DNA from: Elusimicrobiaceae bacterium
GTDB taxonomy: Bacteria > Elusimicrobiota > Elusimicrobia > Elusimicrobiales > Elusimicrobiaceae
Direction: 5' to 3'
Assembly: GCA_016282685.1 (NCBI GenBank)
Contig: JAEELM010000016.1
Span: forward strand, 1-64,000
DNA: 64,000 nt
Below, one piece after another: positions 22,343 through 62,270 of this stretch (position 1 is the first letter of the stretch; each line of letters starts with the position of its first letter). The translations under genes and the position numbers were made by a program. The notes under the pieces are model-generated. The model did no database searches, had not been told where the DNA came from, and saw only the letters and a list, made by a program, of their open reading frames with translations.

Positions 22343-22422
22343 ACTTATATTATATCTAATTCCAATCTTTCCTCGCAAGTAACGCAAGGCACAAAAGACC
22401 TAGGCCTTTTGCTGACAATAAT

Positions 22423-24121: not shown

Positions 24122-27100
24122 TTATTGCGCCGGAGACGGTGTCGGTCCTTCCGTCGGACCTTCTCCGGGGGTATCTCCTCCCCGGTGAAAGAATCTCTTA
24201 AATCGCTCCCATACTTTTTGGATTTCTTGGCGCACCCCCGTCACAAGAGAAGAATTGCGCATCATCCGCGGAGTAAGCAGCAAACTGGTCAGTAACATAC
24301 CGCTTGCATAGAGTAAATTAGCCGGCACACCCAGCCCAGCCATTCCTGCCATATAACCTGCTGGAATAGCAACCGCGCCACCTACTGACATGGTTAATGC
24401 CATAAGAGAAGAAAGCTCTCGGTCTCGTTTTTCTTTTTCATACCGTCCCGTAATATAATTATACATTTGTGTGAAGAAGTTCCCTATCCCTATAGTGGCA
24501 ATTGTAGCACCGGCAATGGTTTGCGGTACACTGCCACCGGCGGTAACCATCATTGCCGTTCCGATTGCAGAAAGGGTAGAAAAGCCTATATACATGGAAG
24601 CTGGGCTCATCTCACGGTTGCTGAGGTCTCCTCCCGCCAGACGGCCGGCAATCATTGGTAGGTATAAGGTACTGGCAACCAAAAAGAGGGCTAATTCACC
24701 TTGCGGGATAAGATCTTTCATAATACCGGTAAATGAACTGGAAAGTACAAACTCGTGTACACACGCAGCCGACATGGCAGCCAATAACGAAGGCACCCCC
24801 GGGGAACGGAACATTGTCCACATGTTACCCAGGTTGTTTTCTTGCATTTTAATTGCATCAGACAAGCGCTCCATAATTTGCTTGGCTTCTTCCGGTGTTT
24901 TCTTGTATTCTTGGATCAATTTCTTTTCCACTGCAACCCACACTTTTTCCTTAAAATCTTCATAAAGAATTTTTTTGAGGGCTTTTTTATCTTTGGAAGG
25001 ATCAGAATCTATTTTGATATGTGCAAAAGCCAAGGCATCCAGAGACTCTTTAAACGAATACGCAACATCACGAATGTCTTGTTGGTTAAGGTCTTCTTTT
25101 GCCAAAGTCTTCGACCCCGTATCAATCATATTGATTACGATTTGCCGGCTTTCGTTCAATTTTTTAACGGTGTAGGCATCACGCAGTTTAGAACCCAATA
25201 TTCTGAACATGGTGTAAGTAGAGTATAAAGCATAAATCGGGAAAGCGATGGAAAAGTCAAACCCTAAATTTATGCCCGTTGTAAATTTAACTGCGTAGTT
25301 AATAACAAGTGCCATAGCCAAAAATGTTAATGTTCCTACATTCTTATAAGTAAAGCCCTTGTTATAACCGGCCAACGTGCTGAGAGAAATTTTTGGCTTT
25401 TGAAGAAAAATTTCCTTAAACCGCTGGGCAATTAATTTAAAACCTTCCGGTTTTCCCTCTGTCAATTCTTCTACAACTCCTTCAGTCTTTTCCTCTGATG
25501 ACAGAACCACCACTCCACGATTGCTTCTAATTAATGGATTACTTACCAACTGCTTTATAATTCCGGCTCCGGCCATGCAGATCATCCCCGCCATAAATAG
25601 TCCTTTCTGAACGGGGCCCAATGTCATTTGTTCCACAAACCCGTAAAACCCACCGGCAGTTGCCAATAGCCCAGATAGCGCAGATATTCCCATCGCGGTT
25701 ACCAGCAAATTCTTTTCCCCATACTTCTTAAGCGCCGGAGTCATTAAAGAAGCAAAACCCGGCATGACATAGTTGATAGAAAACATCAAAGCATTGGCAG
25801 TGGCATCACTGACTCCCAAAGGATCTCTTACAATAGATCCTACTTTCCCCAAACTAATGTTGGATAAGGCAGCATCACGCGCCACGAGAGACACTCTGTC
25901 TTCCGTTGGATTTATTATAAATTCCAATTGGGTTCCTTTCTCTAAGAAAGGTTCCAATTTCATAAATTGTTGGAGCTGATGTTTCGGGAAACGAACGTAA
26001 TATTCTTCCGGAAGGGGAACAATTTCATCAGAACCTTCGAATTTTAATCCAATTTCCCCATTTTCGCGTAAGAAGAATTGAGCGTTTAGAATAAGATTTT
26101 CACTCTGTGTGCCCGGCAACCCCAACGATTCCAACCAGTGCGAAAACGCCTGTTTTGCCTCTCTGCGCCACAAAGCAAGACTTAACTGTACATCTAATTC
26201 CACCGGTAATTCTTCCCCGGTTTTTTCATCATAAAGTTTCTTTTTTACCCGTTCCAATGATGCATTCGGATCGTGCTCCAATTTCAAGCTCAAACTCACG
26301 CCGGCTTTTTGTGCCGCACGCACGAGCGCACCTACGTCATTGGGAGAAATGGACATATAAAAGTGTTCCATATCAACGGGCTTTTCCCCATTTTCGACAC
26401 GTTTTACAATATATCCGTTTTCAAAACGGGGTTCTTCTTGGAATATTATTTCGTCATAATCTCCTTTAAAAGAGGAGCCTATGCTAAACGTAATGGGAAG
26501 AGCTCTCTTTTCTCCGGTCTTGCTTACCACACTTACCGGGAAAGAAGTACGTTCCCCTTTTTTGCCGGATAAAAACTGTTTAAACCGTTGTAATACGGTA
26601 GCCGATTCTTCTTGTGCGGGAACAACCTGCTCCGCAACGGCCTGCTCAACTGTAACCGGCGCTGTTACAACCGGTTCCGTTACAGCCGGAGTTATTTCCT
26701 CTGTCAGCGAAGAAGGTGGCAAAGCTAACACCAATGGTTCAACCGGCCCACCGGCTTTGCCGGCCACACCACGCTTAGGCGCGGAAGAAGGCACTACCCG
26801 AAATTCTTCCAATTCTCCCAGATTGCGCCAAGTAAATGTAGCAGAAGTTGAGAAATCACCGACTAAACCGGCAAACGGCCCATAACGAAGTAAACCTTTT
26901 TGGAAAGAAGGAGAAGCTACAGAAGCATCCGGAGCTTGATTCGTAAGCTCTGTTATTTGGTTGCGGAATGTTTCCCAGGAAATGTCTTGCGCATCTTCTT
27001 CAAACAACGATTTTAATTTACTTTCAGCCTCCTTCCCCATACGTTGTAAACTGCGGCCCAATAAAAGTTTTGCAGGGCTTTCAAAAATAGTTCCTTTGGC

Positions 27101-27712
27101 TGCTTTGTAAAAATCAAACAAAGAAGGAATATCTTTTTCATTCCCCATTAACCCCAAGGCAGCGGCATCAGCAAATAAACCAAAAACTTTTTCTTCCGGG
27201 CTATTTTCAGTTTTCAGCACCCGTTGCGAGAAAGATTCCAACGTTTCCCCTTTGCCGACCATGGAAAAAATCTGAGGAGCTTGCGCCAACTGTTCTTGGT
27301 AAAAACCAATTGCTTGCCCGCGTTCAAAACCGGGTAGGCGGCGTTTCAAAGCAAGGCCTACCATTTGGTTACGCATTAAAGCAAGGGAATAAGAACTTTG
27401 CGGAAGTTTTAGAATCTGAGCACCTAAACCAAGAAACTGATTATTTTGAAATTGAGAAGAGATAAGTTGAATTTCTGTCGGAACACCGGATTGCACAGTA
27501 AAGGAGGGAATACGTGCTAAATAGGCGGCTGTAATTGTTCCGTTAAACACGTGTCTTGAAAGTGCTGCCGGCAAAAAAAGACTTTGCCGAGGAGCTCCTT
27601 GGGCTGTAGCGCGAACGACAGATTCTCCCAACGGAGTTAGCTGCGCAAAAGCCGGCGCAGCCGTATTTACAAGCAGACAAGCACTTAATACGAGCGATAA
27701 AAATTGTTTCAT
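24122..27712 (-). CDS. Large (1196 aa) protein: signal peptide, long extracytoplasmic region, C-terminal polytopic MFS-like membrane domain
   Basis: MKQFLSLVLSACLLVNTAAPAFAQ leader; multiple hydrophobic segments from roughly residue 630 onward; Pro-rich tail GEGPTEGPTPSPAQ. Confidence 0.65.
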   Translation of the reverse strand: MKQFLSLVLSACLLVNTAAPAFAQLTPLGESVVRATAQGAPRQSLFLPAALSRHVFNGTITAAYLARIPSFTVQSGVPTEIQLISSQFQNNQFLGLGAQILKLPQSSYSLALMRNQMVGLALKRRLPGFERGQAIGFYQEQLAQAPQIFSMVGKGETLESFSQRVLKTENSPEEKVFGLFADAAALGLMGNEKDIPSLFDFYKAAKGTIFESPAKLLLGRSLQRMGKEAESKLKSLFEEDAQDISWETFRNQITELTNQAPDASVASPSFQKGLLRYGPFAGLVGDFSTSATFTWRNLGELEEFRVVPSSAPKRGVAGKAGGPVEPLVLALPPSSLTEEITPAVTEPVVTAPVTVEQAVAEQVVPAQEESATVLQRFKQFLSGKKGERTSFPVSVVSKTGEKRALPITFSIGSSFKGDYDEIIFQEEPRFENGYIVKRVENGEKPVDMEHFYMSISPNDVGALVRAAQKAGVSLSLKLEHDPNASLERVKKKLYDEKTGEELPVELDVQLSLALWRREAKQAFSHWLESLGLPGTQSENLILNAQFFLRENGEIGLKFEGSDEIVPLPEEYYVRFPKHQLQQFMKLEPFLEKGTQLEFIINPTEDRVSLVARDAALSNISLGKVGSIVRDPLGVSDATANALMFSINYVMPGFASLMTPALKKYGEKNLLVTAMGISALSGLLATAGGFYGFVEQMTLGPVQKGLFMAGMICMAGAGIIKQLVSNPLIRSNRGVVVLSSEEKTEGVVEELTEGKPEGFKLIAQRFKEIFLQKPKISLSTLAGYNKGFTYKNVGTLTFLAMALVINYAVKFTTGINLGFDFSIAFPIYALYSTYTMFRILGSKLRDAYTVKKLNESRQIVINMIDTGSKTLAKEDLNQQDIRDVAYSFKESLDALAFAHIKIDSDPSKDKKALKKILYEDFKEKVWVAVEKKLIQEYKKTPEEAKQIMERLSDAIKMQENNLGNMWTMFRSPGVPSLLAAMSAACVHEFVLSSSFTGIMKDLIPQGELALFLVASTLYLPMIAGRLAGGDLSNREMSPASMYIGFSTLSAIGTAMMVTAGGSVPQTIAGATIATIGIGNFFTQMYNYITGRYEKEKRDRELSSLMALTMSVGGAVAIPAGYMAGMAGLGVPANLLYASGMLLTSLLLTPRMMRNSSLVTGVRQEIQKVWERFKRFFHRGGDTPGEGPTEGPTPSPAQ

Positions 27713-27758
27713 GGTATCTCCTTACCTCTATTGTGGCTTTTTTCAAACCATAAGAAAA

Positions 27759-27798
27759 GGGCCAAAAGACCTAGATAAACAGGGTTTTTAGACCTAGA
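27759..27798 (-). promoter_or_regulatory. Candidate shared motif, two copies (GGGCCAAAAGACCTAGA and AGGGTTTTTAGACCTAG on +)
   Basis: Near-identical to sites at 30474-30490 and 62204-62220, also upstream of signal-peptide genes. Confidence 0.5.
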
Positions 27799-29635: not shown

Positions 29636-30424
29636 TTATAATAAAGAGGTATGTTCTTTCAAAAACTTCAAGAGATGTTCCCGTTCTGCACTATTAGGGC
29701 TGCGTTCCACCAACGTGCCAATCGTATTCCCGGCGGCATCCGTTGCCCAACGTTTAATTTCTTCTTCGTAAATACCGGTAGAGCTGGCGCGTACCAATTC
29801 GCTGGAGTTGTTACGAACATTTTCTAATTTGGTCACATTTTCTGCTAAGTTAGAGTGGGTATATAAAGGATAGAAAGAGGCTACTTCACCGCGGCTTAAA
29901 TGGCTGATTAATGGGGTTTCCATTGCCATATTTCGTTCGTTTTTCAATTGATTGATTACAGAAAAATCTGTTGGGAACACGGTGCGGAATAAAGAAGCAA
30001 TCGATAACAATGTAGATAAATCTTGCGCATTATGTAACAAATTGTTTTGAAATTCATCTGTCTGCAACAATACTTGCGGATGAATACAAGCAGCTTGCGG
30101 TTGAATATCTGAAATAGAAATAAGAACTGTATCCTTGGGACAAGAGAGAGGTTGGTTGGCGCGGACTTGTTGAGTTTGTGAAACTAAGTTGGAAAAAGCA
30201 TTGGCTGCTCCCAAGCGGGCCCATTGATGAAACTGTTTGTTTAATTGTATTTCTAAGTTAGAAAAATCTGCAGCGTGTTGACGGTTTTTGTTCCAAGCAC
30301 GCCATACTTTTTGTTCGTATGGGCGGGCGCTTTCTTGCGTTTTTAAGCCATATTCCACCTCGTGCGCTTGTAGAGACATTACCGATAGCAAACTTATAAC
30401 CAACAGGTATATGATTTTTTTCAT
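29636..30424 (-). CDS. Secreted protein of unknown function
   Basis: Signal peptide MKKIIYLLVISLLSVMSLQAHE; RBS AGGAGAGG upstream; no recognised domain. Confidence 0.6.
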   Translation of the reverse strand: MKKIIYLLVISLLSVMSLQAHEVEYGLKTQESARPYEQKVWRAWNKNRQHAADFSNLEIQLNKQFHQWARLGAANAFSNLVSQTQQVRANQPLSCPKDTVLISISDIQPQAACIHPQVLLQTDEFQNNLLHNAQDLSTLLSIASLFRTVFPTDFSVINQLKNERNMAMETPLISHLSRGEVASFYPLYTHSNLAENVTKLENVRNNSSELVRASSTGIYEEEIKRWATDAAGNTIGTLVERSPNSAEREHLLKFLKEHTSLL

Positions 30425-30473
30425 AGGGCACCTCTCCTTTCCTATAGTATGCCCATTTAATATATAAATAACG

Positions 30474-30490
30474 AGGGTCTTTAGACCTAT
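30474..30490 (-). promoter_or_regulatory. Candidate shared palindromic motif AGGGTCTTTAGACCTAT (+ strand)
   Basis: GGTCT-TT-AGACC inverted repeat about 50 nt upstream of the 29636-30424 start. Confidence 0.5.
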
Positions 30491-30501
30491 TGCAAATAAA
30501 A

Positions 30502-30530
30502 AAAAGACCTATGTTTTTTATAGGTCTTTT
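30502..30530 (-). terminator. Intrinsic terminator downstream of tRNA-Gly
   Basis: AAAAGACCTAT-GTTTTTT-ATAGGTCTTTT perfect stem, T run on the minus strand. Confidence 0.7.
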
Positions 30531-42765: not shown

Positions 42766-42817
42766 ACCTATATGGTACAAAATTGAACAGAAGGGAAGGA
42801 ATAGGCCTTTGGACCTA

Positions 42818-61113: not shown

Positions 61114-62142
61114 TTAGTCTCTGTGGACATGTTTAGTGTTTATGATGGGAGCGTTATCCATTAACATTTTCCAATTCCACGAATTAGATTTCCATTTTTG
61201 AAGGGTCCGTTCTATCTCTTTACGCCCACGGGGTTCCTTCGGGCTTGCCGTTACAGCAGGTTCTTCGCCCATCAATCTGATATAAGCTTCTCTCAACCGG
61301 CCCAAAACGGAATCCAACTTCAATAAATAGGTTGTATCCGTAGCCAAAGAAGAGTTGAAGTGTTCTACGGCGAAAGTACGCACGATTGCTTGTGTTTCAA
61401 GAATGTGCCCAAGTTGTACTTCTGCTGCGGCCGGAGTAATGGTTATCTCTCCGGTAGCCAATTTTTCCAATTCTCTTTTAGTTTCTTCAGCTACGCGAAG
61501 GCCATTGTTAAATACATCCCTATAATTCGCGTACACTCTATCTTCTTCGTAAGGCGTGAAATAACCCGATTTTAAGGTAAACATTACACTTAATCTGTCG
61601 GCCGTACCAACCGCATCCAAAAAATCAATATCTTTCCATGTTGCGGCCACCGCATCTTTGGCAAGCTGCGTGGACACATAATTCGGAAGAATTTCTTTCG
61701 GAAGGGCATTATTCATTGCACGAGCAACAGAAGAACTTAAAGACGATGAAACAAGTGCTTGCAGCGGTGGGATAGAAGCCATCAACTTCGGTCCGGCACT
61801 TGTTATGGCGCTTGTTCTGCTCAGTTCTTCTTTTACAAAATTAGGAGGTAATACAGAAAGAGGGACCTCAATCGCATTAGTAGGCACTGCATAAAAAGGC
61901 TTTTCAACCGCTTTTAATCCAGCGTTTGGTATAGCTTCTCTAAGCGTCATTCCTTCCGGAAGTCGGTAACATCTTAACCCGGCTCTTGTAGGAATAGTAA
62001 GAAATATTGTGCCACTTCTCATTTCCACTGCTTTGGCACCATTACCTATGAGAATTTCCGATACAATTTTACTTTCAACCCCTGCATTGGCAACCAATGA
62101 AAGACACAAACATCCAATTAACATGGCCCATTTTTGTTTCAT
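61114..62142 (-). CDS. Secreted protein of unknown function
   Basis: Signal peptide MKQKWAMLIGCLCLSLVANA with upstream AAGGAG RBS; no recognised domain. Confidence 0.6.
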   Translation of the reverse strand: MKQKWAMLIGCLCLSLVANAGVESKIVSEILIGNGAKAVEMRSGTIFLTIPTRAGLRCYRLPEGMTLREAIPNAGLKAVEKPFYAVPTNAIEVPLSVLPPNFVKEELSRTSAITSAGPKLMASIPPLQALVSSSLSSSVARAMNNALPKEILPNYVSTQLAKDAVAATWKDIDFLDAVGTADRLSVMFTLKSGYFTPYEEDRVYANYRDVFNNGLRVAEETKRELEKLATGEITITPAAAEVQLGHILETQAIVRTFAVEHFNSSLATDTTYLLKLDSVLGRLREAYIRLMGEEPAVTASPKEPRGRKEIERTLQKWKSNSWNWKMLMDNAPIINTKHVHRD

Positions 62143-62203
62143 TTTATTCTCCTTATTCGGCATTTGCATACTTATACTGTAATTCTTATATGCAGGTAAA
62201 ACC

Positions 62204-62220
62204 AGGGTCCTTAGACCTGG
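62204..62220 (-). promoter_or_regulatory. Candidate shared palindromic motif AGGGTCCTTAGACCTGG (+ strand), embedded in a longer inverted repeat
   Basis: AAAACCAGGGTC-CTTA-GACCTGGTTTT, about 60 nt upstream of the 61114-62142 start. Confidence 0.5.
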
Positions 62221-62270
62221 TTTTAAGGGGAATTAGGACCTAGTTAAATCTGGGCCCTGGGTACCAGAAC

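Follow-up and report, generated by a model that had tools for sequence, protein, structure and literature searches.

The sequence TAGGTCY-AA-AGRCCCT of Elusimicrobia is probably the operator of a dimeric activator that binds just upstream of the –35 element and controls a regulon of exported proteins together with one small RNA (sRNA) and one ~50-aa protein. In the mechanism that we propose, the putative activator would bind as a dimer directly upstream of –35, its centre ~42.5 bp ahead of the transcription start, frequently together with one or two more dimers ~23 and ~47 bp upstream, and once bound it would recruit RNA polymerase to sigma-70-type promoters with a weak –35. The regulon would comprise tens of genes per genome, most of them coding for lineage-specific exported proteins. 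The operator, its fixed position in the promoter, its tandem spacing, the regulon and the conservation of the regulon are evident from the DNA itself. Three features lead us to infer activation and not repression: the register is rigid, the upstream dimers are phased, and the –35 hexamers are poor.

The initial annotation of the window (the whole 64,000-nt stretch analysed) had reported three near-identical 17-mers at 27781-27797, 30474-30490 and 62204-62220. All three lie at exactly these coordinates, with 0 mismatches, and end 68, 49 and 61 nt upstream of three minus-strand gene starts in identical orientation; in gene orientation the motif reads AGGTCYAAAGRCCCT. Three window sites alone are little proof, because the pattern was derived from those sites. 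Relatives of a gene near the sites assign the window to Elusimicrobiaceae of rumen and gut. In the source genome (1.42 Mb, 49 contigs, completeness 91%), AGGTCYAANGRCCCT occurred 17 times compared to 0 for the reversed-pattern control, and across 60 genomes of the family it occurred 138 times, again compared to 0; these matches came from genera g1 and g2 and from part of g3. A phylum-level search found the core TAGGTCYAANGRCCC in other families of the class Elusimicrobia as well, with a maximum of 11 in one genome (G129); outside the class there was practically none, with one match in ~80 genomes. With the promoter profile R1, 38 matches were obtained in the source genome at E ≤ 0.01, and 7-38 promoters per g1 genome at the same threshold, with fewer in g2 and g3; at E ≤ 0.1, matches were present in 58 of the 60 family genomes. 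Beyond the family, the full promoter profile was sparse and the operator core still present. In genome G038, four contig ends (C28, C31, C38 and C62) all carry an identical motif in their first ~135 bases, which suggests a repeated regulon promoter where the assembly broke. The scan of the source genome and its relatives that had been proposed as a check thus found the motif genome-wide and family-wide, and the observation is confirmed as real and far larger than the window.

The 109 sites behind the consensus consist of two inverted heptamers separated by 2 bp (7-2-7). When 87 sites from relatives were aligned with those of the source genome, –10-like hexamers started 22, 23 and 24 nt after the motif with 42, 21 and 10 matches among the 87 sites, respectively, over a background mostly <8, and the source genome gave 13, 5 and 3 matches at the same offsets. 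At all three promoters of the window the gap between operator and –10 is exactly 22 nt. With this spacing, –35 would begin at the final T of the motif, and the dimer would be centred at about –42.5. Two positions absent from the search pattern also showed a strong preference, with T at position –1 in 98% of sites and G at position 16 in 72%. The –35 position after the motif often reads TTG or TGG, and the –35 hexamers of the regulon promoters are poor. The placement of start codons provided an independent check on the predicted +1: 20 start codons coincide with it (offsets 34-36), compared to 2 at offsets 37-44, and leadered genes begin further on. Among the sites in loci L001-L027 and L111-L197, about one-fifth of the regulon genes (~20% of starts) begin exactly at the predicted +1; those mRNAs therefore look leaderless, which suggests that leaderless translation may be common in Elusimicrobiaceae.

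The three promoters of the window are all on the minus strand. At the gene for the exported 1196-aa protein (24122..27712), the strong 17-mer that had been taken as the main site is the distal partner (TAGGTCTAAAAACCCT, 27781..27796), 23 bp upstream of a weak 7-2-7 copy that is promoter-proximal and abuts –35 (TAGGTCTTTTGGCCCT, 27758..27773, PWM score 14.1 bits); the –10 element CACAAT (27730..27735) lies 22 nt past the end of this proximal operator, at the family-wide spacing peak. The 262-aa gene (29636..30424) has a proximal operator of 30.8 bits (TAGGTCTAAAGACCCT, 30474..30489, promoter-profile E = 9.4e-9), the –10 element CATACT 22 nt past it (30446..30451), and 22 bp upstream a distal half-site TAGGTCT (30505..30511) within a terminator-like hairpin. 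The 342-aa gene (61114..62142) has a proximal operator of 25.7 bits (CAGGTCTAAGGACCCT, 62204..62219, promoter-profile E = 5.7e-8), a distal operator 23 bp upstream (TAGGTCCTAATTCCCC, 62227..62242) and the –10 element TACAGT 22 nt past the operator (62176..62181); an alternative start of this gene at 62169 coincides exactly with the predicted +1 and would make it leaderless. The initial annotation had described all three products as signal-peptide proteins of no recognised family. For the exported 262- and 342-aa proteins no Pfam family was found; the 1196-aa protein has a signal peptide, a long N-terminal part without assignment and a C-terminal stretch, residues 983-1176, that is MFS_1-like. 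The initial annotation had also listed four weaker copies. Those at 27758-27773 and 62227-62242 are the second operators, 23 bp from the main site, and the other two are probably not members. The copy at 42801-42817 scored 15.0 compared to 24-31 for real sites and, at only 19 nt before a Mur-ligase start, leaves too little space for a –10; the copy at 22393-22410 was judged not to be a promoter.

Scoring of upstream DNA with a symmetric half-site placed the best second site at 20-24 bp in 26 sequences compared to 0.3 in shuffles. Further dimer sites clustered at 22-25 bp and 46-49 bp upstream. Distal half-sites often lie inside U-tailed hairpins (AAAAGACCTA...TAGGTCTTTT), for example at 30502-30530 of the window and in loci L002, L004 and L009, as if the upstream terminator and the distal operator shared sequence.

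Downstream of the sites, a crude test called a signal peptide in 98 of 106 ORFs, compared to 8 of 53 other genes of the window (Fisher p ~5e-23). The enrichment upstream of signal-peptide ORFs for which a test had been suggested was therefore found, and the motif is not merely as common upstream of these genes as expected. Nearly all of the downstream exported proteins were without a Pfam match (94 proteins searched), the exceptions being some with ankyrin repeats, two with receiver-like domains, one ChaN and one matrixin. One exported protein (L017:1550-2656) has a C-terminal receiver-like stretch that matched Pfam Response_reg at E = 2e-5, and in another (L023:39-1439) such a C-terminal stretch was seen by eye only; a receiver-like domain is odd for a location outside the cytoplasm. 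Among the papers that literature searches listed, none described a regulon or an sRNA from the phylum Elusimicrobiota.

Several regulon promoters drive, in place of an exported protein, an RNA of ~75 nt that ends in a U-run. The sRNA locus (L009/L332:1501-1579; G000:C11:22706-22780; homologues L333-L361) is single-copy, and a covariance model built from six examples found it in 30 of 36 g1 genomes and in 3 of 3 g2 genomes. The operator was present at 23 of the 24 non-seed loci, where the gene had been found by homology alone. Across the 30 sRNA sequences the stem covaries and so retains its pairing, with 17 both-side compensatory changes compared to 3.6 in shuffles, and the hairpin loop is C-rich and almost invariant, with UCCCAAACCCUG in most of the sequences. 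Against Rfam, only tRNA matched at the gathering threshold, and at E ≤ 5 no match attained the gathering score of its family; the sRNA appears to be a previously undescribed family. At several loci a tRNA gene lies nearby on the opposite strand. A search of the window for complements of the loop gave no excess over chance, and a plasmid search for the sRNA locus found none. C-rich loops are also known from the sRNAs sX13 of Xanthomonas (PMC3771888) and B11 of Mycobacterium abscessus (PMC10470900). The Elusimicrobia sRNA resembles these in its exposed C-rich loop, for which pairing with G-rich sites in mRNAs is expected, but has a single conserved hairpin loop, and we claim no sequence relation to either. 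Because of this C-rich loop, we infer that the sRNA would act as the repressing arm of the regulon.

The ~50-aa protein (NLRFLLALGNTKIVVL...) is encoded as a single copy in 49 of the 60 family genomes (L320:1489-1650; G000:C15:59354-59500; homologues L302-L331). It is limited to genera g1-g3, which have the regulon, and was not found in g4-g6; the operator lies upstream at 20 of the 24 non-seed loci that were found by homology alone. AlphaFold predicted a beta-beta-beta-alpha fold with moderate confidence, and a fold search with this model gave no PDB match at E ≤ 0.001. The protein, too, appears to belong to an undescribed family. We considered it as the regulator and rejected it: the predicted model has no helix-turn-helix, and the protein was undetected in the motif-bearing genomes G009, G012, G014 and G020, which are 98-99% complete. 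The sRNA and the ~50-aa protein are absent from the same six g1 genomes (these four, G038 and G045). As some of the six are closely related, the joint absence may be a single loss; possibly it reflects one clade-specific loss, or else a functional link.

As to what binds the operator, CRP, GerE and GntR regulators were searched genome-wide. The CRP/FNR family was missing from genus g1 except for a weak LexA-like match to PF13545; no strong operator was found near this LexA-like gene, and one weak copy lies elsewhere in L206. GntR proteins were absent from the motif-bearing genomes G000, G050, G054, G020, G030, G001, G015 and G129. All family genomes tested have two full-length NarL/FixJ regulators in common, RR-A and RR-B, and some gave extra GerE matches; in G000, the HTH regions of RR-B and RR-A are at G000:C22:1551-1718 and G000:C33:75023-75190. 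RR-B is a GerE regulator encoded beside a receiver-histidine kinase hybrid. The motif-bearing members of the class that were compared (G129, G153, G126, G166, G098 and G162) have orthologues of RR-B with 60-72% identity, and the recognition helix of RR-B, SVKT(I/V)KNHLN, hardly varies, with G004 as the main exception. Genera g4 and g6 keep RR-B with an identical recognition helix while motif matches are absent. Because of this, we regard a NarL/FixJ-family response regulator as only somewhat favoured as the binder, and RR-B, the better of the two candidates, as a tentative choice at slightly under even chances. In the loci scanned, the response regulator genes had no operator upstream.

A binder from another family is the strongest competitor, though still unlikely: the genome-wide search covered CRP, GerE and GntR only, but the 7-2-7 repeat, its position abutting –35 at a fixed distance from –10, and the phasing of tandem dimers at 22-25 bp are the features of a NarL/FixJ class II regulon, and all of them were found here. 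It is improbable that the binder is RR-A instead of RR-B. RR-A is present in 19 of 19 family genomes and neighbours a HisKA_3-type kinase gene that would pair with it, but G129, with 11 exact sites, has no RR-A orthologue, and the two close GerE proteins of this genome are orthologues of RR-B.

A repressor acting on otherwise constitutive promoters through an operator that overlaps –35 is a little less probable again. The motif does abut –35, often followed by TTG or TGG, and a repressor in this position could likewise show a fixed distance to –10. However, a repressor operator needs neither the rigid –10 register nor dimers phased at 23 and 47 bp, the poor –35 hexamers resemble those of activator-dependent promoters, and repressors of the GntR type are missing. 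We consider it very improbable that the motif is an RNA leader, as the initial annotation had allowed, or a riboswitch or terminator hairpin. The motif is palindromic, and some distal copies do overlap terminator-like U-tailed hairpins, to which the sites as a whole are not confined; but an RNA leader is unsupported because the motif precedes the predicted –10 and transcription start. Its distance to –10 is fixed while start codons follow it at anything between 27 and >150 nt, apparently leaderless genes use it, and the Rfam matches of the window are tRNAs only. A dispersed repeat or chance recurrence, which the few sites in the window could by themselves have suggested, has next to no probability, as 109 of 111 site windows share nothing beyond the motif and promoter, the control count is zero, and the operator is retained upstream of orthologous genes with differing flanks. 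The reading of the inverted repeat as the operator of a dimeric regulator, in turn, is supported by its genome- and class-wide recurrence, the fixed –10 distance, the tandem spacing and the downstream signal peptides.

More speculatively, the class Elusimicrobia may possess one phosphorelay-controlled regulon for an orphan secretome, in which a single NarL/FixJ activator would drive tens of fast-changing exported proteins, a repressing C-rich sRNA and the ~50-aa protein; we think this possible, at well below even chances. Elusimicrobia occur widely in guts and in groundwater and are hard to study, and the exported proteins found here are mostly orphans. The operator is a sequence tag for co-regulated exported genes and their start sites, with which a secretome can be listed from DNA alone, and from such a list one can ask which signal controls the regulon. 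The sRNA and the ~50-aa protein that share the regulon make concrete experiments possible.

Among known operators, the NagR site, a GntR/HutC operator, is TGGTCTAGACCA. The Elusimicrobia site is like GntR/HutC operators in its GGTCT/AGACC half-sites, but differs in its 2-bp spacer and in that motif-rich genomes have no GntR protein. The heptamer of NarL is TACYYMT, whereas that of Elusimicrobia is TAGGTCY/AGGGYCT, the targets are different, and the regulator is only a candidate. NarL of E. coli activates yeaR-yoaG and ogt from a 7-2-7 site abutting –35 (PMC7419079), and the Elusimicrobia promoters share with these the inverted heptamers, the 2-bp spacer and the position next to –35 (–44.5 at ogt, about –42.5 here). 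In Bordetella, BvgA binds as head-to-head dimers phased at 22 bp, the most proximal of which abuts –35 (PMC7250471). The Elusimicrobia promoters similarly have a proximal dimer at –35 and phased dimers, at 22-25 and 46-49 bp, but their DNA sequence and phylum are different, and BvgA controls virulence genes where the Elusimicrobia operator precedes orphan exported proteins. The likeness to NarL and BvgA is thus one of layout, not of sequence: activators that abut –35 are a known type of system, and what is new is this member with its class-wide regulon of exported proteins.
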